A stretch of DNA of 59,234 nt, taken from a virus. Of the stretch, positions 9,480-58,057 are shown one piece after another. The translations under genes and the position numbers were made by a program. The notes beneath the pieces were generated by a model. The model had not been told where the DNA came from, searched no databases, and worked only from the letters and a program-made list of their open reading frames with translations. The stretch covers positions 1 through 59,234 of IMG/VR virus record IMGVR_UViG_3300046451_001045; one strand, written 5' to 3'. Position 1 is the first letter of the stretch. Every line of letters starts with the position of its first letter.

Positions 9480-9977
9480 ATGGCAACAATAGACCAATTT
9501 AAAGCACAATTAGTCGGAGGCGGCCCTCGTGCCAACCGATTTAGAGTATACTTACCTCGTGCTGGTGAGAAAATAGAATTTCTGTGTAATGCAGCTCAAA
9601 TTCCTGCTGGAACACTAGGTGTGATTACACAACCTTTTAGAGGTCATAACCTCAAACTTGCAGGAGATAGAAGTTTTGCACCTTGGACAGTATCTATTCT
9701 CAATGACGTAGAATTCTCTGCTAGAAACGCCTTAGAAGCGTGGCAAGAAGAGATTCAACAACTAGACAGTGGAGTCGGTTCAACAACTACTGATTACCTA
9801 TTGTCTCGTGCGTTTGTAGAACAATTACACAAAGATGACTCAGTCCTAGCGAGATACGAATTCTTCAACATGTTTCCTTCAGAAATTGGTTCAATTGCAT
9901 TGGACTATGGTACTGAAAACGAACTAGAAAAGTTCGATGTTACGTTTGAATTCTCTCACTGGGAAAGAGTGATTTAA
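9480..9977 (+). CDS. gp19: Tail tube protein gp19
   Basis: This 165-residue protein is the tail tube subunit, essentially the same length as T4 gp19 (163). The FRVYLPRAGEKIEFLC block near residues 21-36 and the HNLKLAGDRSFAPWTV block fit the tube fold. It has its own ribosome site (AACAGGAG) just upstream and is co-transcribed with the sheath gene. The related gene at 16570 has the same tail-tube flavour. Confidence 0.94.
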   Translation: MATIDQFKAQLVGGGPRANRFRVYLPRAGEKIEFLCNAAQIPAGTLGVITQPFRGHNLKLAGDRSFAPWTVSILNDVEFSARNALEAWQEEIQQLDSGVGSTTTDYLLSRAFVEQLHKDDSVLARYEFFNMFPSEIGSIALDYGTENELEKFDVTFEFSHWERVI

Positions 9978-10011
9978 GACTCTAAAGTGAAAAATACCAC
10001 CAGCAAGGTGT

Positions 10012-10019
10012 TATAAATA
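10012..10019 (+). promoter_or_regulatory. Late promoter TATAAATA, 5 nt before the gp20 ATG
   Basis: A perfect TATAAATA ends five bases before the portal gene ATG at 10025, with no room for a Shine-Dalgarno sequence. Initiation at the usual distance would give a leaderless portal mRNA. Confidence 0.75.
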
Positions 10020-10024
10020 TAGTT

Positions 10025-11587
10025 ATGGAAATATTCGGATTTGAAATATCCCGTAAAAAGGATGAACTAAGACAAACAGATGCGTTACTTGCTAACAAAT
10101 CTTTTGTACCACCAGTTGAGGATGACGGTACCCCCGTCATCCAAACACAACAGGGTGGATTTATCTCGGGTGGAGCTTATGGTTCCTATGTAGATATGGA
10201 AGGTGGTATCAAGAATGAGTCCACCCTCATATCAAGATATCGTGAGATATCACTTATACCTGAGTGTGACTCTGCTATCGAAGATATAGTTAATGAATGT
10301 ATCACAGCGGATAGTTCAGATAAGATAGTGTCACTCGACCTTAGAGATGTAAAACTCTCTAGTGGAATCAAAAAGAAGATGGGTGACGAGTTTTACCACA
10401 TCTTATCTATGATGAAGTTCAATCAGAACTCTCATGAATTATTCAGAAAATGGTACGTTGATGGAAGGATTTACTTCCATAAAGTCGTGGACGGAAAACG
10501 ACCAAAATTAGGTATTGTGGATTTAAGAAATGTTGACCCTCTTAGAATTAAAAAAATAAGAAATGTTGACAAGAAAAAAGACCCAAAAACTAATATAGAT
10601 GTCATTACTAAGGTAGAAGAGTTCTTCCTATTTAATGATAAAGGATTTCAAGATGGTGGTGCCGCAGAAGGTAACACTGTCAGAATAGCACCCGAAGCTG
10701 TTACTTATACAACTTCAGGACTATTAGACTACACTAAGAATGTAGTTATAGGATACTTGCATAAAGCATTAAAGACTTCTAACCAGTTGTCAATGATGGA
10801 AGATGCACTTGTTATTTACAGAATATCAAGAGCTCCTGAAAGAAGAATATTTTATATTGACGTAGGTAATCTACCAAAAGCGAAAGCTGAACAGTACCTT
10901 GCAGATGTAATGAATAAGTATAAAAATAAACTTATTTACAATGCAGATACAGGTGAGATTAAAGATGATAGAAAACATATGTCAATGTTGGAAGATTTTT
11001 GGTTACCTAGAAGAGAGGGTGGCCGAGGAACAGAGATTGAAACTCTGCCCGGCGGACAAAATCTTTCAGAGATAGACGATATAGAATACTTTAAGAAGAA
11101 ACTATATCAGTCTCTTAATGTACCAGCCTCTAGGATGGAATCAGATAATGGTTTCAACATGGGTAGGTCTTCAGAGATTAATAGAGATGAACTTAAGTTT
11201 AATAAGTTCACTAACAGACTTCAGAAGAAGTTTGCTAGGGTCTTTACAGACATTCTGAGAACACAATTAGTCCTTAAGGAGATTGTTTCTGCAGAAGAGT
11301 TCGATGGAATTAAAGATTTTATACAGTATGACTTTGCAACGGACAACCACTTTACAGAGTTGAAAGACCAAGAAATACTGAAAGAGAGATTAGATACATT
11401 ACAGACTGCATCAGAGTATGTTGGTCAGTACTTCAGTAAAGAGTATGTTAGAAAATATATACTAAGACAGACTGAAGATGAAATTGCACAAATGGATGCT
11501 CAAATAAAAGCAGACAATGATGCAGGTGAAAACGATGATAGTGGAGATGGTTTCTACGATTCAAATGATAATGGAGAGAACAAATAA
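10025..11587 (+). CDS. gp20: Portal vertex protein gp20
   Basis: This 520-residue protein is the portal, the dodecameric DNA channel at the head vertex and docking point for terminase (T4 gp20 is 524). Conserved portal blocks include SALIEDIVNE-like sequence (CDSAIEDIVNECI near 76), a basic LPRREGGRGTEIETLPGG loop near residue 330 and MGRSSEINRDELKF near 380. The C-terminus is acidic. The stop shares a base with the ATG of the small gene that follows. Confidence 0.96.
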   Translation: MEIFGFEISRKKDELRQTDALLANKSFVPPVEDDGTPVIQTQQGGFISGGAYGSYVDMEGGIKNESTLISRYREISLIPECDSAIEDIVNECITADSSDKIVSLDLRDVKLSSGIKKKMGDEFYHILSMMKFNQNSHELFRKWYVDGRIYFHKVVDGKRPKLGIVDLRNVDPLRIKKIRNVDKKKDPKTNIDVITKVEEFFLFNDKGFQDGGAAEGNTVRIAPEAVTYTTSGLLDYTKNVVIGYLHKALKTSNQLSMMEDALVIYRISRAPERRIFYIDVGNLPKAKAEQYLADVMNKYKNKLIYNADTGEIKDDRKHMSMLEDFWLPRREGGRGTEIETLPGGQNLSEIDDIEYFKKKLYQSLNVPASRMESDNGFNMGRSSEINRDELKFNKFTNRLQKKFARVFTDILRTQLVLKEIVSAEEFDGIKDFIQYDFATDNHFTELKDQEILKERLDTLQTASEYVGQYFSKEYVRKYILRQTEDEIAQMDAQIKADNDAGENDDSGDGFYDSNDNGENK

Positions 11588-24972: not shown

Positions 24973-26448
24973 ATGGGAATAATTACAGAAAAAGTTAATC
25001 GTCACATTCTTATGGAAGCAGATACATCGTCTGCAACTAATACAGAAATGGCCATTTGTTACCACTATAATCTTCAGAGAAGTGCAGATGGTGATGAAGA
25101 AAAGGCAAAGAAAATCTCGGGAATCGATGATAAGAACTTTGCAAAACTAACCCCCGACCTATTAGAGATAGGTGATAAAGTTGCACGAGATATGGGTAAC
25201 AGAGGCCCTATGTTAATTCATAGTGGTGCCGCAACTGCATCAAATAACTTTTATGCTGGTGCATCAGACAAGACACCTAAAGCCGATTTCTTTGGAAACA
25301 GCAATAATAGAATCTCTCTCAAAAAACAAGGTGATGGTGGAAGTGGTGCTCAACTTATGAGTGCAAAGTCTGCCGAAGCAGCTGGAGTGTTTACATCTTC
25401 CATTGCACACTTAGAAGCAAATGAAAGTCAGAGTTTATCAAATAGTAAAGAGTTTAAATCTGCATTAGATATTTTAGAAAAGAAGATGTTAGACTCTGCA
25501 AGAAATGGTATGGTTGTCCAAGCAGGTAAATCAAAAGCATCATTTACAGAATGGTATCTCACTAAAAGTAGTAGATTCCAAGAGTTAAGTAAAAAACATC
25601 CTGCAAAACAGGTTACAGACCATCTAAGAGCAGAGTTGATGTTACTAGGTGTTGCTAGAATGAGTAAAAAATCTTCAGAAAAGGTAATTGCAGGTGTTTC
25701 TTTGATGGACACTAAAGGTTTAACAAAATACCAAGATGAATACCAAGATAATTCAGATGTAAGTATTGGTGATGTTCAAGTAAGTGCAAAACACTTAAAG
25801 AATGTTACTGCAGATAAGTTAACTGCAGATGCAGTAAAGGCCCAAGTTATAGATGTCGTTCAACAGTCCGTAAATGGAACTGCATGGAAAATGGAACTTC
25901 AGAAGTTTTTTGATAATAACGATGCACTTAAGAAGTGGGTAGTGTATGAAGCTGGTTCGGGACTGTTCAAGTTCACTGGTCAAACTGCAACTAAGGGTGA
26001 TTACAATGGTAGTGAAGAATCGGTTGCAAATAAAATCCTAGTGTTTAACGATAGTGGAATTGCAAAAGAATATAGGTTGTTTGATTATGCAATGAGTAAT
26101 CCACAACTTTGTGATGATATAGGTGTGACCTTTAAAGCAAATGGTAGAGATTCTTACCTTGCATTTAGAATACAATCACATGTTGAACATGATATGCCTA
26201 TGTTACAAGAAGAACTAAATAATATCGAATCTGAACTACTACAAGAAGGTTTCTTCGGTGATGTTGCTAAGAAACTTAAATCATTTGTAGAGAAAGCAAA
26301 AAAGGCAATTTGGAAGTTTATAAGTAATATCATAAGTAAAGTTATTGGTAATATAAGAGTCCTTGCAAACAAAGGTATTATTGCATTTAATGAAGCTATG
26401 GGTATAGATATGAATGGAACTGTTAAAATAAAAACCCCAAACTGGTAA
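24973..26448 (+). CDS. Large conserved phage protein, possible nuclease-like N-terminal part
   Basis: This 491-residue protein is unidentified. Near residues 102-125, KADFFG followed by RISLKKQGDGGSGAQLMS resembles the D...SxKxxG pattern of PD-(D/E)XK nucleases, and a helical region follows. The last 75 residues are basic and amphipathic (KKLKSFVEKAKKAIWKFI) and follow LLQE, a plausible gp21 cleavage site. A late promoter suggests a virion protein, perhaps an internal head protein delivered with DNA. All functional ideas are inference. Confidence 0.6.
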   Translation: MGIITEKVNRHILMEADTSSATNTEMAICYHYNLQRSADGDEEKAKKISGIDDKNFAKLTPDLLEIGDKVARDMGNRGPMLIHSGAATASNNFYAGASDKTPKADFFGNSNNRISLKKQGDGGSGAQLMSAKSAEAAGVFTSSIAHLEANESQSLSNSKEFKSALDILEKKMLDSARNGMVVQAGKSKASFTEWYLTKSSRFQELSKKHPAKQVTDHLRAELMLLGVARMSKKSSEKVIAGVSLMDTKGLTKYQDEYQDNSDVSIGDVQVSAKHLKNVTADKLTADAVKAQVIDVVQQSVNGTAWKMELQKFFDNNDALKKWVVYEAGSGLFKFTGQTATKGDYNGSEESVANKILVFNDSGIAKEYRLFDYAMSNPQLCDDIGVTFKANGRDSYLAFRIQSHVEHDMPMLQEELNNIESELLQEGFFGDVAKKLKSFVEKAKKAIWKFISNIISKVIGNIRVLANKGIIAFNEAMGIDMNGTVKIKTPNW

Positions 26449-36444: not shown

Positions 36445-36471
36445 AAAGAGTGTTTCGGCACTCTTTTTTTT
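36445..36471 (+). terminator. Rho-independent terminator
   Basis: AAAGAGTG (36445-36452) pairs with CACTCTTT (36459-36466) around TTTCGG, followed by a run of T residues. It separates the replication region from the curli-like island. Confidence 0.9.
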
Positions 36472-36493: not shown

Positions 36494-36501
36494 CATAAAT
36501 A
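36494..36501 (+). promoter_or_regulatory. Late-type box CATAAATA, 5 nt before ATG
   Basis: CATAAATA followed by AACGT then ATG at 36507. It is the only clear promoter for the overlapping chain that includes the csgF- and csgG-like genes, so this island is probably transcribed late and begins with a leaderless message. Confidence 0.55.
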
Positions 36502-36506
36502 AACGT

Positions 36507-36803
36507 ATGGAAGAGATATTTGGTTTAATAGGTGAAGTCGGAGCCCCAATTGCAGGGTCAATCGTTATGGGATTTTTTATCTTCATAGTCATTAAGCAGA
36601 TACTTGAGGGTGTTGTTGACAGTATTGGTACACTAACCATGTTCTGTAAATCACTTGAGAATCGTGCTAGAACGATGTCGAACGAGATGATTAAGATTGA
36701 CTTACTAGTGTCAAGTGCATTAGAACTCAGACCCGACATCGATAGGATTGCAAGAGCCGAGAACTTCATCGAAGACGATAAACTCGATGTAAGAAGGGAT
36801 TAA
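36507..36803 (+). CDS. Holin-like membrane protein, tandem copy 1
   Basis: This 98-residue protein has a hydrophobic N-terminal segment (residues 10-34) with GAPIAGSIVMGFF, then an amphipathic helical C-terminal half (RTMSNEMIKIDLLVSSALEL). It is a recognisable paralogue of the next gene. Both resemble one-helix membrane proteins with a coiled-coil tail. Role unknown; location upstream of csgF-like suggests membrane or envelope work. Confidence 0.7.
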   Translation: MEEIFGLIGEVGAPIAGSIVMGFFIFIVIKQILEGVVDSIGTLTMFCKSLENRARTMSNEMIKIDLLVSSALELRPDIDRIARAENFIEDDKLDVRRD

Positions 36804-37084
36804 TGGATATTGCATCTCTAATATCCGAATACGGATTTCCAATAGTCATGTCAGTCGGACTTGGCTACTTCATATATTACATATGGTGGTTTGTGGGTGA
36901 GAAACTAGAACCCCAAATTGAGAAGATGCATTTTGCACTAATAAAAGTAATAGACCAAACAAGAATGTTAGACCAAGATTTAATTCGTTTACAACAAAAA
37001 GTAAACGTAGTTCTCGAAATGAAGGAGAACTTAAAAAAAAGAGAGAATGAAAGAAATGCAAAAGATAACAACAGTAATAATTAG
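36803..37084 (+). CDS. Holin-like membrane protein, tandem copy 2 (YvrJ-like)
   Basis: This 93-residue protein has SLISEYGFPIVMSVGLGYF (residues 5-23) continuing into IYYIWWFV, reminiscent of YvrJ-type small membrane proteins, then a coiled coil (QTRMLDQDLIRLQQKVNVVLEM). It aligns with the preceding protein over GxPI and the R-x-M-x5-I stretch. It starts on the stop of copy 1 and overlaps the csgF-like gene by 38 bases. Confidence 0.7.
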   Translation: MDIASLISEYGFPIVMSVGLGYFIYYIWWFVGEKLEPQIEKMHFALIKVIDQTRMLDQDLIRLQQKVNVVLEMKENLKKRENERNAKDNNSNN

Positions 37085-37517
37085 TGTTTGTTTTGCACTT
37101 AGTGTAAGTGCAGATGAAATAACATTCAAATTTAAGAGTCCTGCTTTTAGTGGGATAGGACAATCTGCACATTACTTGACAGTAGAGAATCAAGAGAAGT
37201 CAAGACGTGATAAGATTAGTCAAGACATAGAAGACAAGATTAAACAAGCAGAGAGAGAAGCAGAGAATACAACGCTTGCAAAATTCCTCAGAAATGTGGA
37301 AAGTAGAATTTATGCTCAGATAGCAAAACAGTTAGTAGAGAATATGTTCTCTAATGGAACTGCATCCGATTACGGAACATTCGCAATCGAAGGTAATACA
37401 GTTACTTATGAGAGAATGGTTGGAGAGGATGGAGTAGACTTCATTCGTTTAACAATCGTTTCTAGTGATGGTACAACAACAACTTTAGATATACCGATAG
37501 GTACAGGAAGTTTCTAA
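37047..37517 (+). CDS. csgF: Curli assembly protein CsgF-like
   Basis: This 156-residue protein has a signal peptide (cleavage likely after VSA at about residue 22) and then ITFKFKSPAFSGIGQSAHYL, matching the CsgF N-terminus that docks into the CsgG channel. A helical region and a C-terminal beta domain follow (SDGTTTTLDIPIG), as in CsgF. CsgF helps hold the nucleator at the cell surface. An alternative start is 37056. It is directly followed by csgG. Confidence 0.88.
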   Translation: MKEMQKITTVIISVCFALSVSADEITFKFKSPAFSGIGQSAHYLTVENQEKSRRDKISQDIEDKIKQAEREAENTTLAKFLRNVESRIYAQIAKQLVENMFSNGTASDYGTFAIEGNTVTYERMVGEDGVDFIRLTIVSSDGTTTTLDIPIGTGSF

Positions 37518-38426
37518 ATGAGAAATTGGGGAATAGTCGGACTTATCGTCTTGCTCACCAGTGGGTGCGCAGCCATTCCATCTATGACCGACAGTTGTGA
37601 AGCTTTTGTTATGTCAAAAGTAGGTGAGTGTATTGAGAAGGCAGAAGTAGTTAAGATACCAACGTATCAAGAACTTGCAAATCTACCACCAGCAAAAGAC
37701 ATGCCAGTGGTTGCAGTATATGCTTTCATGGACAAGACAGGACAACGTAAGAGTAAAGATGGAATTGCATCTTTCTCCACTGCAGTAACACAAGGTGCAG
37801 AATCATTTCTGATTGATGCACTTAAGACTGCAGCGAATGGTAAATGGTTTAGAGTAGTAGAGAGAACAAGTTTGGATGCACTCGTAAGAGAGAGACAGAT
37901 TATTCGTTCTACTAGAGAAGATTTTGCAAATCAGAAAGGTAATGAAGACGCCCCAACGGGTATTCAACCTCTCTTATTTGCAGGCATCCTCTTAGAGGGT
38001 GGGATTATTGGTTATGACAGTAACATTGAAAGTGGCGGTAGAGGTGCAAGATATCTAGGAATAGGTACTTCTGTTTCTTACCGAAGAGATGTTATCACCG
38101 TCTCGTTGAGAGGAATCTCAACTTTAACAGGTGAAATATTATTGAATGTACAGACAACTAAAACAGTTCTCAGTACAGGCGGTGGATACGATGTGTTCAA
38201 ATTTGTGGACATGGATACGAAACTGGTGGAGATGGAAGACGGTAAGGCAGAGAATGAAGGAGTTACGAAAGCAACTCGTTCTGCAATTGAACTTGCAGTC
38301 TTAGAAATGATATACCAAGGACACGATAGAGGTTTTTGGGTAATTACAGATGGACATCGTCACCCTCATGGACAACATGGAAGGAACGAAGGTCATCTAA
38401 ACGGAGAAGAACATGACGAAGAATAA
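37518..38426 (+). CDS. csgG: Curli secretion channel CsgG-like lipoprotein
   Basis: This 302-residue protein is a full-length CsgG homologue. The lipobox LLTSGC puts the lipidated Cys at 17. Then come PTYQELANLPPAKDMPVVAVYAF-type strands, DKTGQ, the RTSLDALVRERQIIRSTRE block near 120, GGIIGYDSNIESGGRGARYLG-type sequence near 160-180 and the ISTLTGEIL strand. CsgG forms the nonameric outer-membrane pore that exports curlin. An unusual His- and Glu-rich tail (HRHPHGQHGRNEGH) extends the C-terminus and could bind metal. Confidence 0.95.
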   Translation: MRNWGIVGLIVLLTSGCAAIPSMTDSCEAFVMSKVGECIEKAEVVKIPTYQELANLPPAKDMPVVAVYAFMDKTGQRKSKDGIASFSTAVTQGAESFLIDALKTAANGKWFRVVERTSLDALVRERQIIRSTREDFANQKGNEDAPTGIQPLLFAGILLEGGIIGYDSNIESGGRGARYLGIGTSVSYRRDVITVSLRGISTLTGEILLNVQTTKTVLSTGGGYDVFKFVDMDTKLVEMEDGKAENEGVTKATRSAIELAVLEMIYQGHDRGFWVITDGHRHPHGQHGRNEGHLNGEEHDEE

Positions 38427-39147
38427 ATTATTACTCATTATGTTAACATTAGGAGTGACCAGTACTTATATGTTTGCAGCTGCAGACGACAATGAAATTT
38501 GGTTACAACAAAGTGGTACTGCATTAACATTGAACATAACTCAAAAAGGTTATGGAAACAAAGTTGGTGGAGATGACTTTAGTGGTTCATCAATCGATAT
38601 GATATTGACTGGTGCTACTAATAGTTTGACATTACTACAATATGGTGATGCCAATAAACTATACGGCCCTTTCATCGCAGATTTGTCTACAGTAAATTTA
38701 TCTTTTACTGGAAACTCAAATGTAATGGATTGGAATGTTGGTTATCAAGGAAGTGCAGATAGTTTAAATATGTTGGGTGTCATCACTGGTGACTCAAACA
38801 CATTTGATATAGACATCGGTTACGATGCATCTGCTGAATACTTAAACTGGGACTTGTCATTGACTGGTTCAAGTAACGTATTCACTACTAAAATTGATTC
38901 CGACAATGCTAAATGGGACTGGACTGTAACAGGTTCGTCAAATGACATCAATACACTTATGGCAGATGCTTCAGATAATTCATTAACTGCAGTTCTAACT
39001 GGTTCTTCAAATGATATCGACATCATTCAGAAGAGTGGTTCAGACACAGGTTGTCCAAGTGGTCAATCATGTAGTGGAATTATTGACGTATCCTTTGTGA
39101 CCTCTAATGCAAATATTGACATCGTTCAAAAAGACGATAACGATTAG
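38413..39147 (+). CDS. Curlin-repeat protein 1 (CsgA/CsgB-like)
   Basis: This 244-residue secreted protein has a signal peptide (ending near AAA at 25) and many Asn-, Ser-, Gln- and Gly-rich beta repeats. LNITQKGYGNKV near residue 39 matches the curlin pattern with Gln, Gly and Asn at fixed spacing; later units have TGSSNxxxTxxxD variants. GGAG lies before the ATG. It overlaps csgG by 14 bases. It is a likely amyloid-type fibre subunit or nucleator. Two Cys near 217 and 223 could form a disulphide. Confidence 0.82.
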   Translation: MTKNKLLLIMLTLGVTSTYMFAAADDNEIWLQQSGTALTLNITQKGYGNKVGGDDFSGSSIDMILTGATNSLTLLQYGDANKLYGPFIADLSTVNLSFTGNSNVMDWNVGYQGSADSLNMLGVITGDSNTFDIDIGYDASAEYLNWDLSLTGSSNVFTTKIDSDNAKWDWTVTGSSNDINTLMADASDNSLTAVLTGSSNDIDIIQKSGSDTGCPSGQSCSGIIDVSFVTSNANIDIVQKDDND

Positions 39148-40249
39148 TTTTGTACTTATTGGTTTAGTTACGGTAGCAGTAGCCGAACCAATAGGGACAA
39201 TCTCAGAACAAAAAGGTTTTGCTGGATTGCAGAGAGACGGAGAAACGTCTGTTATTTCTGCATCCGAATTTCCTGAAGTGTTGATGTACGACACTGCAAG
39301 AACGGAAAATGGACGAATGAAAATTCAGTTCACTGGTGATGAACAACTTGATTTAACCGAACACTCACTAGTGTTCATTGACGAGGTCTATTACGACCCC
39401 GACCCATCCCTATCTAAAATGTCAATCCGAATGGCACAAGGGACTGCAAGATTCGCTTCAGGATTTGGTGGAAAAATAAAGAAAAGTAACATAAATATAA
39501 CCACACCTACTGCACAGATTGCTGTTCAAGGAACAGACTTCACAACTAGTATTGATGAAATCGGAAGGTCACTGGTAATTTTACTTCCTGATAGATGGGG
39601 AGCTCCTTCAGGAAAAATTACAGTTAGTAATGCTGGTGGAATGGTTATACTGGATGAAGCGTATCAAGCAACGATGGTTTCAACGTATGACGACTCACCA
39701 ACGAAACCTGTAGTGGTTAATGGGATAACACCCAACCTAATTGACAATCTATTCATTGTCAGTCCCCCTGAAGAGGTAAATGAACAGGTTGCAGAAGAAC
39801 AGAGTAAGAATGAGAACGATTCAAACAATGTTCTTGATGTAGATTTCTTAGAGTTTAACGACTTGGAAGATGACTACTTTGAGGATGATGAATTAGAATA
39901 CACGGAACTCGACAGAGATTTACTTGATGTCGATTTTCTACAGGATTTATTAGATGTAGTGTTAGAGATTGACCGAAAGGTTGGTATCGATGCACAACAG
40001 AACACAGCCTTTGGAGTTGTCCGAATTGATGGAACACTTCCAGGCTTTGACAAGGACACCCAATACAATACTATTGTGGACAAGGGTGTAGGTCAGATAT
40101 GGTTCTACAGGGAAGTTAATGGTATTATTTCCATTAAATTACCAATGTTTGCACAAGCAAGTATCAGAACCATAACAGACGAGAAGGAATCACTAATTAA
40201 AGTGGGTGATGGTTCGTCTATAAATATAACCATCACACAACAAAACTAG
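39107..40249 (+). CDS. FecR-domain secreted protein
   Basis: This 380-residue protein has a signal peptide (VLIGLVTVAVA, cleavage near residue 26) and a FecR domain: DTARTENGRMKIQFTG near 62-77, then ARFASGFGGKI and TTPTAQIAVQGTDF at 132-145. The C-terminal part is acidic, with Asp/Leu-rich stretches (DLLDVDFLQDLLDVV). FecR domains sense or anchor in the periplasm and surface proteins. Overlap of 41 bases with the curlin gene ties it to the cluster. Confidence 0.82.
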   Translation: MQILTSFKKTITISFVLIGLVTVAVAEPIGTISEQKGFAGLQRDGETSVISASEFPEVLMYDTARTENGRMKIQFTGDEQLDLTEHSLVFIDEVYYDPDPSLSKMSIRMAQGTARFASGFGGKIKKSNINITTPTAQIAVQGTDFTTSIDEIGRSLVILLPDRWGAPSGKITVSNAGGMVILDEAYQATMVSTYDDSPTKPVVVNGITPNLIDNLFIVSPPEEVNEQVAEEQSKNENDSNNVLDVDFLEFNDLEDDYFEDDELEYTELDRDLLDVDFLQDLLDVVLEIDRKVGIDAQQNTAFGVVRIDGTLPGFDKDTQYNTIVDKGVGQIWFYREVNGIISIKLPMFAQASIRTITDEKESLIKVGDGSSINITITQQN

Positions 40250-40259
40250 GAGATACTAT

Positions 40260-40409
40260 ATGAGTATTTGGAATAAATTCCGAGAATGGCATGAAGGACA
40301 AGTCTATGGATTTCAAAAAGCCTGCCGACTTGACGATTATGAGATGTTTATGATTGCATTTGGTGAAGGAATAGTTATGACATTATTATTTTTATGGTTG
40401 ATATTTTAA
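40260..40409 (+). CDS. Small membrane protein in curli-like island
   Basis: This 49-residue protein has a polar N-terminus (NKFREWHEGQVYGFQKAC) and a C-terminal transmembrane helix (FGEGIVMTLLFLWLIF). AGGAG is at 40248-40252. Position between the FecR gene and the second curlin-like gene implies a shared role. Function unknown. Confidence 0.6.
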   Translation: MSIWNKFREWHEGQVYGFQKACRLDDYEMFMIAFGEGIVMTLLFLWLIF

Positions 40410-40410
40410 A

Positions 40411-41079
40411 ATGAAAGATACTACACAGTTCGGTGGATTCTTATTTTTACTTTCCCTTATAGGATTGTGCTGGACTAGTGTAGCCTTTGCAGACGATAAC
40501 CATGTTCATGTAGAACAGGTTGATAGCGGAGAGGTAGACCTTAACATAACTCAAAAGGGTTACGACAACAAGGTTGATTTCTCATTTGCACACACTGGTA
40601 ATGAATTTAACTTCCTTCAAACAGGAAATGGAAACACTATTACTTGGGTCTCATTTTGGGGTTCAGGAAAAGGTTGGGGTGGTGATGTAGATGGTTCAAA
40701 CAACACCGAGAATGTATCACAAACAGGTGGTGCAACATATGGAAGACATATACTTGGTAACAGTAACACTGTAGACATATATCAAAGCGGAACTCATACA
40801 CATAACTTAGATATACATGTGAATTCTGTTGACCATGACTTACACCAATCGGGTAGTGGAACTCACTATAACCAAACATATTTCTATGGTTCTTCAGATG
40901 GGTCGAATACAAACATAATGCAAAAAGGTTCGGGAAACATGACTTCTCAAATAACATTAACAGGTTCTTATGCTACAACACTTAACTTGTTGCAAGATAG
41001 TTCCACCAATCAATCGTATACACTTACACAAAACTGCGTAACAGCAGGTGGATGTACAGTTTCAATGACACAAGAATGA
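40411..41079 (+). CDS. Curlin-repeat protein 2 (CsgA/CsgB-like)
   Basis: This 222-residue secreted protein has a signal peptide (cleavage near AFA at 27) and repeats rich in Gln, Asn, Gly and Ser. VDLNITQKGYDNKV near 42-55 parallels the first curlin-like protein; later units include NEFNFLQTGNGNT, NTVDIYQSG and NTNIMQKGSGNM, which fit the curlin Q-x-G-x-x-N pattern. Many His residues occur. It is a likely partner or substrate of the CsgG channel. Confidence 0.85.
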   Translation: MKDTTQFGGFLFLLSLIGLCWTSVAFADDNHVHVEQVDSGEVDLNITQKGYDNKVDFSFAHTGNEFNFLQTGNGNTITWVSFWGSGKGWGGDVDGSNNTENVSQTGGATYGRHILGNSNTVDIYQSGTHTHNLDIHVNSVDHDLHQSGSGTHYNQTYFYGSSDGSNTNIMQKGSGNMTSQITLTGSYATTLNLLQDSSTNQSYTLTQNCVTAGGCTVSMTQE

Positions 41080-41225
41080 ACGACCACTTAAAAACAATAG
41101 ACATGGGATATTTCAAACATCTATTTCATGCATGGACAATGGCATTTGCATTGTTAATACACGGAGTCTTTCCATCAGTATTAACTGATTATGCAAGTGA
41201 TAAGATGTGTGACCACAATGACTGA
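41076..41225 (+). CDS. DUF6356-like small protein
   Basis: This 49-residue protein has the pattern YFKHLFHAWTMAFALLIHGVFP at residues 12-33 followed by SDK, matching the DUF6356 proteins of bacteria, which are small membrane-associated proteins of unknown function. It overlaps the end of curlin-like protein 2 and the start of the next small gene, so it belongs to the same cluster. Confidence 0.65.
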   Translation: MNDHLKTIDMGYFKHLFHAWTMAFALLIHGVFPSVLTDYASDKMCDHND

Positions 41226-41877: not shown

Positions 41878-41957
41878 TGAACTACAGTAGATACATTAAA
41901 AGAAGATACGGATTTCGTGAGATATACTTAGGACGAACTATAGATATCTATGTATAG
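41877..41957 (+). CDS. Possible 26-residue leader ORF
   Basis: A short basic ORF (SRYIKRRYGFREIYLGR) starts on the stop of the IscU gene and ends 8 bases inside the cyclase gene. It may translationally couple the cyclase. It is too short to be secure. Confidence 0.3.
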   Translation: MNYSRYIKRRYGFREIYLGRTIDIYV

Positions 41958-43845
41958 TTGGAAATCCGTTTTAGTAACTATTGTGTTACTATTTGGACTT
42001 AAAGTGTGGTCTCCATACATCGTAGAAAACATTCAGTGGTCATACTTTGACACACTCCACCAGTCTCAAGAAAAGGTGTTAGTAGATAACATCATATTAG
42101 TTGATATAGATGAAAAGAGTTTAGATGCATTCGGACAATACCCAATCAAACGTGGAATTTATCGTGACCTGTTACTTAACACTCATTTTAGTAATACCCA
42201 CGTCTTTACTTTTCTCTTTAGTCAACCCGATAGAGACCCGACCCAAGACGAGATACTTGCAGAAGGTTTGGTCAATCGTTTAACCATTCTTGCAGCTGCA
42301 CCAACAATTCAAAAAGATACTGGTTCTGCACCATTCGTAGGTAACTCTACATTTGGGGGTGGAAATCCTCAAGACCATTTGTGGAACTTCTCAGGGATTG
42401 CATCTCCAATCAGGATACTTCAGGACAATACATATGGTGTTGGGGTCACTGTTGCAACACCTAGTGTTACAGGAACACCTAACTTTGACGGGACAACAAG
42501 GTCTATACCCCTTTTAGTTACTGCAAACAATCAAGTATACCCGTCACTTGCACTAGAAACACTTCGTGCATTAAGAGACCAACCTTCGTATCAAACAAAA
42601 ATTACTCCTGAACTTGGAGTGGAATGGGTCAGGATGGGTAGAGACAAACCTATCTCCACCACCCCGACCAGTGATGTAATGATATCCTACTGGAATGAGT
42701 TCCAAAGGATTAGTGCAGTAGACCTACAGGATTCTAATGTTGAAGGTAAGATTCTTGTATGGGGTCTAACTGCGGAGGGTCTGAATAATCCAGTTTCAAC
42801 CCCAGTGGGTGTAATGTATCCTCACGAAGTGCAAGCACACCATATCCAAACCGTCTTGTCAGGAGTTCAAATACAGAAATCCTACTTTCTTGGATTAATT
42901 GGATTTGCTGTTCTTTTGTCAGTAATGATAATGATACTGGTGATGGTCTACAAGCTTCCCACAGCTCTTTCGGGGATAATGAGTCTATTACTCGTAGGAT
43001 TTCAGGTGGGTGGGAGTTATTATATTTGGACTTCAGAGCTCGTTCTTTTCGATACTTTCTATTCATCGTTAGCCTCCTTGTTGGTTTTTGGTCATGCATC
43101 CTTTAACAAATACTATGTAACTTTCCAAGAAAAGCAACAAATAAAGAAGCAGTTCCAAAAGTATTTATCCCCCGATATGATTGAAGAACTACAAAAACAC
43201 CCCGAAAAATTGAAACTTGGTGGAGATAGAAAGGAACTTTCATTCCTCTTCGCAGACATAGTAGGATTTACCCCCATAAGCGAGGCATACATGAAAAACG
43301 ATGACCCCGAGGGATTGGTCTTACTCATCAACAGATTCCTAGATGGAATGTCAAAGATAGTTTTAAAGAATGGTGGTACGATTGATAAGTTCATGGGCGA
43401 CTGTTTAATGGCATGGTGGGGTGCTCCTTTGGATTGTCCGAATCATGCTGAGATGGCAGTTAAATCTGCAATGGAAATAGAAATACTTACAGAACAGATG
43501 AATAGGGACATCAAGGAAGAAGGATTAGACCTTCCACCAGTAGTTATAGGTACTGGGATTAACACAGGTCAATGCATAGTGGGTAATATGGGTTCAGAAG
43601 ATAGGTTTGACTATTCAGTAGTCGGAGATGCAGTTAACCTTGCAGCCAGACTTGAGGTTCAGACTCGAACCTTTGATACACCTATTCTACTATCGGAGTT
43701 CACTTACATGCAACTCGATGAGACTGCATGTTCATTGGTTGATGAGATAACAGTAAAGGGTAAAGAAATACCAGTCAAGGTCTATGCACCATTGTTTGAT
43801 AACGGAAAACGAAAAGAAGTACGAAAACTTCATAAAACCCCTTGA
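41950..43845 (+). CDS. CHASE2-domain adenylate cyclase, membrane-bound
   Basis: This 631-residue protein has an N-terminal membrane helix (residues 5-22), a periplasmic CHASE2 sensor (IILVDIDEKSLDAFGQYPI at 48-66), three transmembrane helices at about 312-385, and a class III cyclase domain at about 425-600. The metal Asp are D436 (FADIVGFT) and D484 (FMGD); the adenine-selecting pair is K480 and D554 (RFDYSVVGD), with N563 and R567 for the transition state. All required residues are present, so it should make cAMP. Its presence in a lytic-type phage genome is very unusual. Confidence 0.93.
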   Translation: MYSWKSVLVTIVLLFGLKVWSPYIVENIQWSYFDTLHQSQEKVLVDNIILVDIDEKSLDAFGQYPIKRGIYRDLLLNTHFSNTHVFTFLFSQPDRDPTQDEILAEGLVNRLTILAAAPTIQKDTGSAPFVGNSTFGGGNPQDHLWNFSGIASPIRILQDNTYGVGVTVATPSVTGTPNFDGTTRSIPLLVTANNQVYPSLALETLRALRDQPSYQTKITPELGVEWVRMGRDKPISTTPTSDVMISYWNEFQRISAVDLQDSNVEGKILVWGLTAEGLNNPVSTPVGVMYPHEVQAHHIQTVLSGVQIQKSYFLGLIGFAVLLSVMIMILVMVYKLPTALSGIMSLLLVGFQVGGSYYIWTSELVLFDTFYSSLASLLVFGHASFNKYYVTFQEKQQIKKQFQKYLSPDMIEELQKHPEKLKLGGDRKELSFLFADIVGFTPISEAYMKNDDPEGLVLLINRFLDGMSKIVLKNGGTIDKFMGDCLMAWWGAPLDCPNHAEMAVKSAMEIEILTEQMNRDIKEEGLDLPPVVIGTGINTGQCIVGNMGSEDRFDYSVVGDAVNLAARLEVQTRTFDTPILLSEFTYMQLDETACSLVDEITVKGKEIPVKVYAPLFDNGKRKEVRKLHKTP

Positions 43846-50301: not shown

Positions 50302-50328
50302 ACAACGACCCCCTTTTTATTGTATAAT
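50299..50328 (+). promoter_or_regulatory. Sigma70-type promoter, 6 nt before the lipoprotein ATG
   Basis: TAGACA (50299-50304), 18-base spacer, TATAAT (50323-50328), six bases, ATG at 50335. The spacer contains ACGACCCCCTTTTTATTG, related to the promoter at 27734. Leaderless mRNA predicted. Confidence 0.75.
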
Positions 50329-50334
50329 ACAATA

Positions 50335-51612
50335 ATGAGAAAACTAAACAAAGCTTGTACCTTACTACTAACTGCACTATTCCTTGCCTCTTGTGGAGGA
50401 GGGAGTTCCAATAACTGGACACCTGTAGAGACTGCCTCTACACCACCACCTCCACCACCTAGTGGTTGCACATCCAATTGTGGTAATGATACTACTTATT
50501 ATGGGGACTACAGTGATGCAGTCGAGTACATCATGCAAGATGGGTTCTATACACAGGCATTAGTAATATATAAGGATGGTGAACTCTTAAGAGAGGACTA
50601 CCGAGATATAACAGGGAACGAAGCAACTGCAGTAATTACAAAACAAACAGCACTTACTGAACAACAAATACAGGACTATTATGCCTATAATGACGAGTAT
50701 GACAAAACAGGTACTTGGTCAGTAACTAAGTCCTTTATGAGTATTTTAGTAGGTATTGCAATAGACAACGGATTCATACAATCATTAGAACAGAGGTCAG
50801 ATGATTTTATAACCGAATGGTATGGTAGAAGTCAAGGTCAGATGGTTACTATTGGACACTTGCTAGACCATAGAAGTGGTCTACAGGTTATGTGTTCTAA
50901 TAATTATTCTTCTTATGAATTCTTTGAATGCCAAGAAAATCCCGATGGTGGGACAATAACCTATCTTCATGACCAATTGTTCTCATGTATAAACCGAAGT
51001 TTGTATCCAAACGCATCCCCCCCACCATTTTGGAATTACGATAGAGATGGTTCATGGAAACAACAATCTCATATCTATAGTAATTGTGACAGCCAGATAT
51101 TGGGTGAAATTCTTACTCGTGCAACAGGAATGGATGTATCTGAATTTGCAGATAGATATCTATTTTCCCAATTGGGAATACAGGATGTCTTTTGGTGGAA
51201 AGATATGGCCGGCAACACATTATCGTATTGTTGTGTAGAGATTTCCGCAAAAGACCAAGCAAAAATAGGTCAGATGATATTAGATAACGATGGAAGTATC
51301 GTGAGTAGGGAATTCATTGATGGTATAGATACTTCAACAAGATATTCAAGAAGTTTTAGAAATACTGAGGGGTGGATAACGATGAATGGGTTTGACCTCA
51401 ACTTCATTCTGATGCATAAGGAAAAGAATATGGTCATTGTGAGGAGTTCATTATATGCAAGTGTTACAGAATATGATGGAACTCGTACAATAAATTATCA
51501 ACTTGGTACACCCGAATGGGATTCAAATTTTCCAGCATCACTACCAATGGGTATAGCAATGGAAGGAGTTGATGTAGACATGATGGGTGAATTAATATCA
51601 AAAATCGACTAG
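50335..51612 (+). CDS. Serine-hydrolase lipoprotein (beta-lactamase/PBP-C fold)
   Basis: This 425-residue protein has a lipoprotein signal with lipobox LASC (Cys 20), a Pro/Ser linker, then the class C beta-lactamase-like serine hydrolase fold. The nucleophile motif S129-V-T-K132 is intact, as is the second motif Y248-S-N250, followed by ILGEIL. The family includes carboxypeptidases, esterases and NylB-type hydrolases, so function is not antibiotic resistance by default. It would act at the cell envelope. A TTG start at 50320 exists but lies in the promoter. Confidence 0.87.
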   Translation: MRKLNKACTLLLTALFLASCGGGSSNNWTPVETASTPPPPPPSGCTSNCGNDTTYYGDYSDAVEYIMQDGFYTQALVIYKDGELLREDYRDITGNEATAVITKQTALTEQQIQDYYAYNDEYDKTGTWSVTKSFMSILVGIAIDNGFIQSLEQRSDDFITEWYGRSQGQMVTIGHLLDHRSGLQVMCSNNYSSYEFFECQENPDGGTITYLHDQLFSCINRSLYPNASPPPFWNYDRDGSWKQQSHIYSNCDSQILGEILTRATGMDVSEFADRYLFSQLGIQDVFWWKDMAGNTLSYCCVEISAKDQAKIGQMILDNDGSIVSREFIDGIDTSTRYSRSFRNTEGWITMNGFDLNFILMHKEKNMVIVRSSLYASVTEYDGTRTINYQLGTPEWDSNFPASLPMGIAMEGVDVDMMGELISKID

Positions 51613-55574: not shown

Positions 55575-56774
55575 ATGGCAGTCACAAACGTACATTTAGA
55601 ACACCTAGAAGACGAAATCATCAACAATGGTATTGCAGGTGGTCGTGCATCTATCAACTTCCTGAGAGAACTTAGGGACATGTTAAAAGGACATGCAACA
55701 GGTAGAGTCAAGATGACTGTTAAATGGGATGGTGCTCCTGCTATATTCTGCGGGCCACATCCCGAGACTAAAGAATTCTTTGTTGCAAAGAAATCCCTAT
55801 TCAATAAAGAACCATTATTCTACACATCCGAACAACAAATCAAAGATGCACCCGAACTTAAGGGTAGTTTAGAAGAGAAGTTTTTAACATCATTTAAATA
55901 CCTATCCAAGATGGGAATGAAAGAAATCCTACAGGGTGATTTGATGTACACTAACGACAAGTCTAGTGAGACGATAGATGATAAGAAGTATCTCACATTT
56001 CACCCCAATACAATCTTATATGCAGTTCTTGAAGGTTCGAAACTTTATAATGAAATCAACTCAACGAAAATGGGTATCGTCTTCCACACAACTTATTCAG
56101 GGTCTACTATAGAATCACTAAGTGCATCGTTTGGTGCAAATGCACCCAAGTCTACATCAGATGTTTGGACTGATGATGCAACATACAAGGATGTGACTGG
56201 TTACGGAAACATGACTGCAAAGGAAACACTTCAGTTAACCAATGCACTTACTTCGACTGGTAAAAATTTCCATGGTATAACAAACAAAGACCTTAAGAAG
56301 TTTAATGATGTTCAAAATGTTCTCAACAGTAAAGGAGCTGCAGGTGCATCATACAAGACATACACTAATACACTTGTCCGTGCAGGTAAGTGGAACCCTA
56401 ACGGAAAGGACTACCTCACCCATGTAGAGAAATACTGGAAAGATAAGATAGTTGCAAAAGTTAAGATGCAGAAGACTAAAGACATCAAGATACAGATTGG
56501 TAAGGATGTTATGAGAGACTTAAACTCCATCAAAGTGATGATTGATAACCTTGCAAAATTCCAAGGTGGGTTGATAGAGTCAAAATCCCTTATTGTTACA
56601 GCACTAAATAGAGTAAAGAGTATTGGAACCTTCGTGAAGGTAGATAACGGATTTAAAGTAGTTAATCCTGAAGGATATGTTGCAATCGACTCAGACGGAA
56701 GTGCAGTTAAATTAGTTGACAGGATGGAATTCTCTATGAATAACTTCAACGCTGCAAAAGCATGGGACAAGTAA
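55575..56774 (+). CDS. DUF6267-like protein with ligase-like motifs
   Basis: This 399-residue protein carries K50-W-D-G53 in VKWDGAPAIF, which resembles the KxDG adenylation motif of DNA/RNA ligases and capping enzymes. Further motif-like blocks follow: ILQGDLMYT at 118-126, GIVFHT at 167-172 and a late VAKVKM near 290. The set and order match ligase motifs I, III, IV and V in outline. A polynucleotide ligase or nucleotidyltransferase role is inference; the sequence is otherwise divergent. Confidence 0.6.
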   Translation: MAVTNVHLEHLEDEIINNGIAGGRASINFLRELRDMLKGHATGRVKMTVKWDGAPAIFCGPHPETKEFFVAKKSLFNKEPLFYTSEQQIKDAPELKGSLEEKFLTSFKYLSKMGMKEILQGDLMYTNDKSSETIDDKKYLTFHPNTILYAVLEGSKLYNEINSTKMGIVFHTTYSGSTIESLSASFGANAPKSTSDVWTDDATYKDVTGYGNMTAKETLQLTNALTSTGKNFHGITNKDLKKFNDVQNVLNSKGAAGASYKTYTNTLVRAGKWNPNGKDYLTHVEKYWKDKIVAKVKMQKTKDIKIQIGKDVMRDLNSIKVMIDNLAKFQGGLIESKSLIVTALNRVKSIGTFVKVDNGFKVVNPEGYVAIDSDGSAVKLVDRMEFSMNNFNAAKAWDK

Positions 56775-58057
56775 TGAAAAGTTTTAAATCCATATTCGAA
56801 GCAAAAGAAAAGAGTGCAGTGTTTACTTTTGGTAGATTCAATCCACCTACAGTTGGACATGCAAAATTAATAGAAAAGTTAAAAAACTCTACCAGTGGTG
56901 GTTTTGAACCTCTAGTGTTCATGTCACACTCACAAGACTCCAAGAAGAATCCATTAGATTATAAAACTAAATGGAACTTTATGAATAAATTCTTCGGTAA
57001 GAAGGTGGGTATTGTGAACACTAAAGCACGACAAGTGTTTGAAATTGCAACTGCACTACAAGACCAAGGTTACAGTAAGGTTAGAATGGTGGTTGGTTCA
57101 GACAGAATTAAAGAATTTGAGATGTTACTCAACAAATACAATGGTGTGAAAGGAAAACATGGTTACTATAAGTTTGATTCAATTAATATTATATCTGCAG
57201 GGGAAAGAGACCCCGACTCCGATGACGTAAGTGGAATGTCTGCATCTAAAATGAGACAAGCTGCATCAGATGGGGATTATGATTCCTTTGAATCGGGTGT
57301 CCCCGATAAAAAACATGCAAAGACACTTTGGAAGGCAGTAAAAAAGGGAATGAACATCTCAGAGAGTACACTACCATCTTACATGCAAGAGGACTTACTT
57401 AATGAAGGAGTCTATGACCAAGGTATATTTAAAGCAGTCTTTCTAATGGGAGGCCCAGGCAGTGGTAAATCAGAAGTGGTTGATGGTCTTTCCCTTAAAT
57501 CATTGGGACTTAAATTAGTTAATACAGATAATGCATTTGAGAAAGGTCTTAAGAAAGCAGGATTATCATTAGACCTATCTAAGAACGACCCTAAAGACTA
57601 TGACCCTATCCGTGCAAGAGCAAAGGCGACCACTAAAATAGGTATGGACTTGTATATCGGTAACAGACTGGGACTTATCTTTGACACTACTAGTGCAAAC
57701 GACAGTAAGATTAAAGCATATAAGAAACATTTAGATGCACTTGGATATGAATCTAAGATGATTTATGTTCAAACATCACTAGCAAATGCACAAAAACGAA
57801 ATCAAATGAGACCTCGTAAAGTTCCACCCGAAATTGTTACTGGAGATTGGAACAAATCAAATGCAAATGCAATCAAATTGCAAAAGTTGTTTGGTAGAGA
57901 CTTCACTAAGATAGAGAATGATGATACACTTGCATCACTTAAACAGAAGACAAATGGTCTTTATGGTAAACTCATGTCATGGACTACCATATTCCCTTCA
58001 AACAAACCTGCTCTCTCTTGGAAACAACGAGAGTTACATCTCAAAAAGACTAAATAG
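56774..58057 (+). CDS. Bifunctional nucleotidyltransferase (NMNAT-like) and P-loop kinase
   Basis: This 427-residue protein fuses two domains. The N-terminal cytidylyltransferase-like domain has FTFGRFNPPTVGHAKLI at 17-33 and GMSASKMRQA near 155, as in NMN adenylyltransferases. The C-terminal domain has a P-loop GGPGSGKS at about 226-233, like zeta-toxin or polynucleotide-kinase P-loop proteins. The two together might salvage or remodel nicotinamide nucleotides or modify RNA ends. The start at 56774 overlaps the previous stop by one base. Confidence 0.8.
   Translation: MKSFKSIFEAKEKSAVFTFGRFNPPTVGHAKLIEKLKNSTSGGFEPLVFMSHSQDSKKNPLDYKTKWNFMNKFFGKKVGIVNTKARQVFEIATALQDQGYSKVRMVVGSDRIKEFEMLLNKYNGVKGKHGYYKFDSINIISAGERDPDSDDVSGMSASKMRQAASDGDYDSFESGVPDKKHAKTLWKAVKKGMNISESTLPSYMQEDLLNEGVYDQGIFKAVFLMGGPGSGKSEVVDGLSLKSLGLKLVNTDNAFEKGLKKAGLSLDLSKNDPKDYDPIRARAKATTKIGMDLYIGNRLGLIFDTTSANDSKIKAYKKHLDALGYESKMIYVQTSLANAQKRNQMRPRKVPPEIVTGDWNKSNANAIKLQKLFGRDFTKIENDDTLASLKQKTNGLYGKLMSWTTIFPSNKPALSWKQRELHLKKTK
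58050..58056 (+). promoter_or_regulatory. Late-type box CTAAATA, 5 nt before ATG
   Basis: CTAAATA overlaps the stop of the nucleotidyltransferase, followed by GTATT and ATG at 58062. It fits the leaderless late layout and sets the start of the next gene. Confidence 0.55.

Follow-up and report, generated by a model that had tools for sequence, protein, structure and literature searches.

Layout of the operon

The window, by which we mean the whole of IMG/VR virus record IMGVR_UViG_3300046451_001045 (59,234 bases), carries T4-like head, tail and replication genes together with a curli-type operon encoding homologues of CsgG and CsgF, two curlin-type proteins (CUR1 and CUR2), a FecR-domain protein, small membrane proteins and a predicted adenylate cyclase. 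An initial annotation, made from the DNA letters alone, had described a phage-borne curli-type secretion and fibre operon at 36507–41225. Its coordinates and gene calls hold and the operon is well supported, but the module does not end there: it reaches the end of a CHASE2-domain cyclase at 43845. The cyclase, the unusual tail of the FecR protein and the near-invariance of the small membrane proteins in the module had been overlooked. From the terminator-like hairpin to the end of the cyclase every gene lies on the + strand, in the order TM1, TM2, CsgF, CsgG, CUR1, FecR, a 49-residue membrane open reading frame (ORF), CUR2, two short ORFs, NifU and CHASE2-cyclase.

36445–36466, + strand: terminator-like hairpin (9-bp stem, run of T), setting the operon apart from the upstream gene
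36494–36501, + strand: late-promoter box CATAAATA, directly after the hairpin and 13 nucleotides (nt) ahead of the first ATG
36507–36803, + strand: TM1 (phrog_18771), 98 residues, with a single membrane span at the N-terminus and a polar C-terminus
36803–37084, + strand: TM2, a TM1 paralogue of 93 residues
37047–37517, + strand: CsgF homologue with signal peptide and FxxPxFxG CsgG-binding segment (Pfam PF10614; alignment with Escherichia coli CsgF)
37518–38426, + strand: CsgG homologue, full length, with lipobox (Pfam PF03783; PDB profile; alignment)
38413–39147, + strand: CUR1, candidate fibre subunit, a secreted protein with curlin-type repeats
39107–40249, + strand: FecR-domain protein (PF04773; predicted fold)
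40219–40226, + strand: exact late box TATAAATA, within the end of the FecR gene and 41 nt ahead of the ORF at 40260
40260–40409, + strand: small membrane ORF, 49 residues
40411–41079, + strand: CUR2, second curlin-type repeat protein
41052–41225, + strand: small ORF, 57 residues
41395–41877, + strand: NifU/IscU-like protein, optional module member (Pfam E = 2.7e-38)
41950–43845, + strand: CHASE2-domain class III adenylate cyclase (Pfam CHASE2 E = 1.4e-29, cyclase E = 2.5e-18)

Pore homologues, curlin-type proteins and the FecR tail

The CsgG homologue is a full-length domain with a lipobox (PF03783, E = 1.8e-48) that matches the solved E. coli channel (E = 6e-45), aligns to CsgG of E. coli K-12 and is 47% identical to the CsgG proteins of both HTVC008M and Melnitz. 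The CsgF homologue (PF10614, E = 5.9e-13) has C-terminal β-strands and, in alignment with E. coli CsgF, the conserved N-terminal FxxPxFxG pore-binding segment; its PDB profile match is confined to the N-terminus (E = 0.036). Both assignments of the initial annotation are thus borne out. A 1,499-base record named as a Salmonella phage (OR851715.1) encodes a CsgG 43% identical to that of the window; its name or origin is doubtful.

Taken as single sequences, CUR1 and CUR2 give weak Pfam results (0.034 for one, none for the other). Their homologues are more informative: Curlin_rpt is matched by 12 of 22 for CUR1 (best 7.5e-6) and 17 of 24 for CUR2 (best 3.3e-13), and the CUR2 profile matches the solved curlins 8c50 (3e-13) and 8enq (2.9e-6). 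QxGxxN motifs exceed shuffled sequences in the two proteins (2 versus 0.07 and 3 versus 0.17). Simple G/N/Q periodicity is above shuffles in CUR2, where 25 of 2000 shuffles attain the same value, and not above them in CUR1. Structure models were built from sequences of the window and of viral contigs only; that of CUR1 is an all-β chain whose strand pairs recur at intervals of about 23 residues, like those of a curlin solenoid [predicted local distance difference test (pLDDT) 82, predicted template-modelling score 0.79], and in Foldseek tail-fibre and tailspike entries reached E = 1.2 or worse. By its curlin (PF07012) repeats CUR2 is clearly placed among the curlins, and CUR1 is placed with them through its homologues and model, its own sequence supporting this less strongly; the two secreted curlin-repeat proteins of the initial annotation therefore stand. 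The second curlin of HTVC008M (positions 9570–10895 of locus L002) has a long N-terminal extension, and one CUR2 homologue, probably this same protein, matches a PA14 domain, which may be a carbohydrate-binding tip.

The protein encoded between the two curlin-type genes contains a FecR domain (PF04773, E = 1.4e-8), as had been annotated, and the fold modelled for it matches that of the PupR/FecR signalling domain (Foldseek to PupR, PDB code 6ovk, E = 1.6e-4, probability 1.0). Behind its signal peptide, the AlphaFold2 model comprises the FecR domain (about residues 30–191), an acidic, poorly ordered linker and a C-terminal β-domain with strands about every 21 residues (starting at 330, 351 and 372, and at 340 and 361; block pLDDT about 83–89). 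The C-termini of all 100 distinct viral FecR proteins carry [ILVF]x[ILVF]x[QH] no more than four residues from the stop, and the same end motif, a curlin-type strand (IxIxQ), is found in 27/27 clusters at 70% identity, compared with 2.7% of shuffles and none of 18 alphaproteobacterial FecR proteins. This stricter motif was used because a laxer one, present in 99/100 viral FecR proteins, also matched 3/15 bacterial FecR proteins by chance. E. coli CsgB ends in AIRVTQR and many viral curlins have the same kind of end. The terminal strand motif is solid; since tests of whole repeats by Pfam, profile–profile comparison and repeat matrix were weak, the motif is what we regard as shared, homology to whole curlin repeats not being proven. 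We rejected the stronger reading that the C-terminus of FecR is an established curlin domain, for which Pfam, the PDB profile and the repeat matrix gave no support.

A profile search of 385 Alphaproteobacteria found the FecR domain alone, with the viral C-terminal half present only in one metagenome-assembled genome (MAG) with phage contigs. A bacterial origin, pursued through FecR, was likewise rejected: the nine genome contigs that matched all have a viral-type FecR and viral-type neighbours, and for this reason resemble phage contigs that binning placed in genomes. The phage module (loci L163–L171) turns up in public MAGs under the labels Synechococcus, Sphingobacteriales, Planctomycetaceae, Pelagibacter, Maricaulis and others, on contigs that are likely to come from phages and to have been binned with bacterial genomes.

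Gene order, accessory genes and known relatives

Scans of viral contigs with CsgG and with FecR each gave at least 600 candidate stretches. Among about 160 viral loci from IMG/VR, the order TM–TM–CsgF–CsgG–CUR–FecR–(CUR)–(NifU)–adenylate cyclase recurs in most, with little variation besides contig ends; NifU and the cyclase are often part of the module, and NifU is located elsewhere in some loci. The survey of gene order proposed with the initial annotation thus found the same arrangement widely. An independent scan seeded with TM1 rather than CsgG found two TM genes followed by CsgF in 63/63 loci with room for them.

The late box stands exactly 13 nt ahead of the first ATG, with sequence NATAAATA, in 67/79 loci found via TM1, where the background would give about 0.04 per 70 nt. 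Being close relatives, these loci are not independent cases. More distant loci retain the box at other spacings. The window has 11 copies of TATAAATA, all on the + strand, which exceeds each of 100 shuffles; the box ahead of the operon is of this T4 late-promoter type, here CATAAATA. The initial annotation had placed the genes behind one late-type box; that box is present at 36494–36501, but it is not the only one, a second exact box at 40219 lying ahead of the second half of the operon. The boxes suggest that the operon is probably transcribed late. In T4 the late box occupies positions −13 to −6 relative to the transcription start and therefore, with a 13-nt spacing, the operon mRNA could, by analogy, begin at the ATG itself. 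The exact 13-nt spacing is found twice in the window, at the operon (36494–36507) and at the portal gene (10012–10025), which would give leaderless mRNA if the T4 geometry applies.

The products of the TM genes, which precede CsgF, are some 95 residues long and span the membrane once, at the N-terminus. From their position and copy number (`sometimes two') we take these genes to be those labelled HK in PMC9599517. None of 18 family members has a kinase Pfam match, whether HisKA or HATPase_c, and the HATPase_c model matches nowhere in the record, while the same search matches in all 14 control genomes. PHROG holin family 4898 is matched by 6/18 homologues (best 1.1e-4), the window members giving 0.028 and 0.0087. 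The family was found in one of 96 alphaproteobacterial genomes, a MAG carrying phage contigs. Judged by their sequences, the published `histidine kinases' appear to be single-span proteins without a kinase domain, and TM1 and TM2 probably serve the module as accessory proteins of the inner membrane rather than as histidine kinases. The published kinase label ought to be reviewed.

The metal, substrate (K/D) and transition-state (N/R) residues of class III adenylate cyclases are kept in the alignment of the last gene product, which is thus a predicted adenylate cyclase with intact catalytic motifs. Outside curli loci, alphaproteobacterial genes for FecR and CHASE2-cyclase frequently lie side by side: a FecR match lies within 5 kb at at least 15 of the 73 cyclase places listed (rough expectation 0.9%), and no FecR or cyclase was found within about 9 kb of five sampled alphaproteobacterial curli loci. 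In the BiofilmReg operon of Burkholderia, a LysM–FecR gene adjoins a CHASE2 histidine kinase (PMC5192318). As in the window, an exported FecR-domain protein stands beside a CHASE2 sensor enzyme in such pairs; they differ in being unlinked to curli, and the 18 alphaproteobacterial FecR proteins checked lack the curlin-type tail. These neighbourhoods suggest that phages joined an existing envelope-sensing FecR–CHASE2 pair to curli.

Among isolates, the major capsid protein of the window phage is closest to those of Melnitz, Mosig and HTVC008M (64–67% identity, Melnitz first at 67%), which places it among the marine myophages of this broad group; for the DNA polymerase the best matches are cyanophages (46%). 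The initial annotation had mentioned curli-secretion homologues in some marine T4-like phages, and HTVC008M and Melnitz do carry the module. CsgG and CsgF were reported in pelagimyophages in 2020 (PMC7029224) and the module of Melnitz in 2022 (PMC9004378). PMC9599517 (2022) describes CsgF, CsgG, CsgA/B, FecR, a second CsgA/B, adenylate cyclase and `histidine kinase' in marine podophages and myophages, with global distribution and transcripts, and states that the cyclase is not always present. Its order for this type VIII secretion system (T8SS), short proteins–CsgF–CsgG–CsgA/B–FecR–CsgA/B–adenylate cyclase, is that of the window. The novelty suggested, subject to checking, for the complete set with substrates and FecR accordingly falls away, the module being already published.

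Compared with the pelagiphage module (PMC7029224 and PMC9599517), including HTVC008M (KC465899), the window phage has the same genes in the same order, with NifU additionally between CUR2 and the cyclase and with the `histidine kinase' label unsupported. Melnitz-type methylophages (MZ577097; PMC9004378) have the same module with diverged sequences; the Melnitz paper favoured a role in lysis and describes csgA and csgB as missing, whereas record MZ577097 annotates curlin repeat proteins. Bacterial curli systems (csgBAC/csgDEFG of E. coli and csgFG–curlin of Alphaproteobacteria) share CsgG, CsgF and curlin-type subunits with the window, whereas the window record is without CsgC and CsgE and adds FecR and a cyclase. 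The curlin-type FecR tail, the FecR–CHASE2 pairing outside curli, the kinase-less nature of the `HK' genes and the conserved box at −13 seem not to be described in PMC7029224, PMC9004378 and PMC9599517.

Elsewhere in the window, a protein with a β-lactamase-family serine hydrolase domain (PF00144, E = 5.4e-13) is encoded at 50320–51612 near replication genes, its relatives being labelled minor tail protein with lysin activity in PHROG; a single protein with cytidylyltransferase-like and zeta-toxin/AAA_33 kinase-like domains, perhaps an enzyme of nucleotide metabolism, is encoded at 56762–58057; and a 491-residue ORF at 24973–26448 has no PHROG or Pfam match.

A candidate fibre module of infected cells

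We consider it likely that the operon is a phage type VIII (curli) secretion and fibre module, used late, in which a pore exports curlins, FecR links the fibre to the envelope and the cyclase completes the set. This reading draws on the CsgG, CsgF and FecR profiles, the curlin homologues, the CUR1 model, the near-invariant gene order, the late box, the FecR terminal strand, the FecR–CHASE2 pairing and the cyclase motifs. The operon would be transcribed late in infection, and the CsgG lipoprotein pore with its CsgF cap would assemble in the outer membrane of the infected cell. One or two curlin-type subunits (CUR1 and CUR2) would then be exported to form amyloid-like surface fibres. For the phage, the FecR protein would connect the fibre with the envelope: the FecR domain would remain in the periplasm, and the C-terminal strand, which resembles the end of E. 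coli CsgB, would template or read curlin. The protein may thereby act as a tether or nucleator, report export to the neighbouring CHASE2-adenylate cyclase, or both, and the cyclase would produce cyclic AMP (cAMP) in the host.

Several observations weigh against this proposal. CsgE and CsgC models give no match in the record, in agreement with the initial annotation, so that the CsgE gate and CsgC chaperone of an E. coli-type T8SS are missing; the record is a fragment, and the absence holds for this record only. According to PMC9599517, alphaproteobacterial curli likewise lack both. CUR1 is weak by sequence (PDB profile E = 0.0099), and its model has no significant solved match in the PDB by Foldseek, to either a curlin or a tail fibre. 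For the FecR C-terminus, Pfam finds a curlin repeat in none of 24 members, profile–profile comparison gives at best P = 0.0023 with CUR2 and 0.017 with CUR1 (controls 0.13 and 0.4), the repeat matrix does not favour it over another FecR segment, and whole curlin repeats are recognizable in only part of the family, one subgroup having a clear Q-D-G-x-x-N unit. Finally, no clumping was seen in OM43 cultures infected with Melnitz (PMC9004378).

Within the fibre model, two roles for FecR can be envisaged, which are alternatives but not mutually exclusive. In the first, a tentative possibility, FecR would sense the curlin load in the periplasm and pass a signal to the CHASE2-cyclase, raising host cAMP. 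The recurrence of FecR–CHASE2 gene pairs outside curli, including that of PMC5192318, and the retention of the cyclase with intact motifs in most loci point this way; the pairing is known from gene neighbourhood only, and the variable presence of the cyclase noted above speaks against it. In the second, which we regard as somewhat doubtful, FecR would be an anchored nucleator replacing CsgB, with a periplasmic plug, a linker running through the CsgG channel and a curlin strand outside. The CsgB-like terminal strand and the modelled disorder of the acidic linker between two β-domains would suit such an arrangement, as would a match of the FecR fold to the cell-surface anchoring domain 5ix9 (TM-score 0.72 of target over 65 columns) and the location of many alphaproteobacterial FecR matches in very large open frames (1000–6900 codons). 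However, no N22-like secretion signal was seen in FecR, CsgG is not known to thread proteins C-terminus first, the E value of the match to 5ix9 is only 0.015 and whole-repeat homology is weak.

An improbable alternative to the fibre model is that the CsgG/CsgF pore serves simply as a hole, admitting solutes or depolarizing the envelope and helping to set the moment of lysis, the small membrane proteins being its holin-like partners. Roles for the pore were proposed in PMC9004378 and PMC7029224, and the holin-family matches of the membrane proteins and the absence of the CsgE gate from the record agree with it, but signal-peptide-bearing curlin-type genes lie directly behind csgG in nearly all loci and a bare pore needs none. 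It is very improbable that the operon is under iron and two-component control, with an iron-responsive regulator in FecR and histidine kinases in the short proteins, as the annotation in PMC9599517 would have it, because FecR begins with a signal peptide or hydrophobic helix and has no cytoplasmic anti-sigma part of the FecI/FecR kind, no sigma-factor partner was noticed in the module (no search was aimed at sigma factors) and the short proteins lack any kinase match.

Returning to the fibre module, a bolder and rather unlikely elaboration is that marine phages joined an envelope-sensing FecR to a CsgB-like terminal strand beside a CHASE2-cyclase, so that fibres would be both anchored and read out, with feedback into host cAMP late in infection. 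The benefit to the phage is a matter of speculation: aggregation and a block to superinfection are hypotheses already published, and exclusion of other phages and capture of new hosts likewise come from the literature. If the module works, a very common group of marine phages would cause their hosts, among the planet's most abundant cells, to produce amyloid on their surface shortly before they lyse, and aggregation, superinfection and carbon flow could change as a result. The FecR tail and the FecR–CHASE2 pairing offer a concrete, testable idea of how such fibres may be tethered or sensed.

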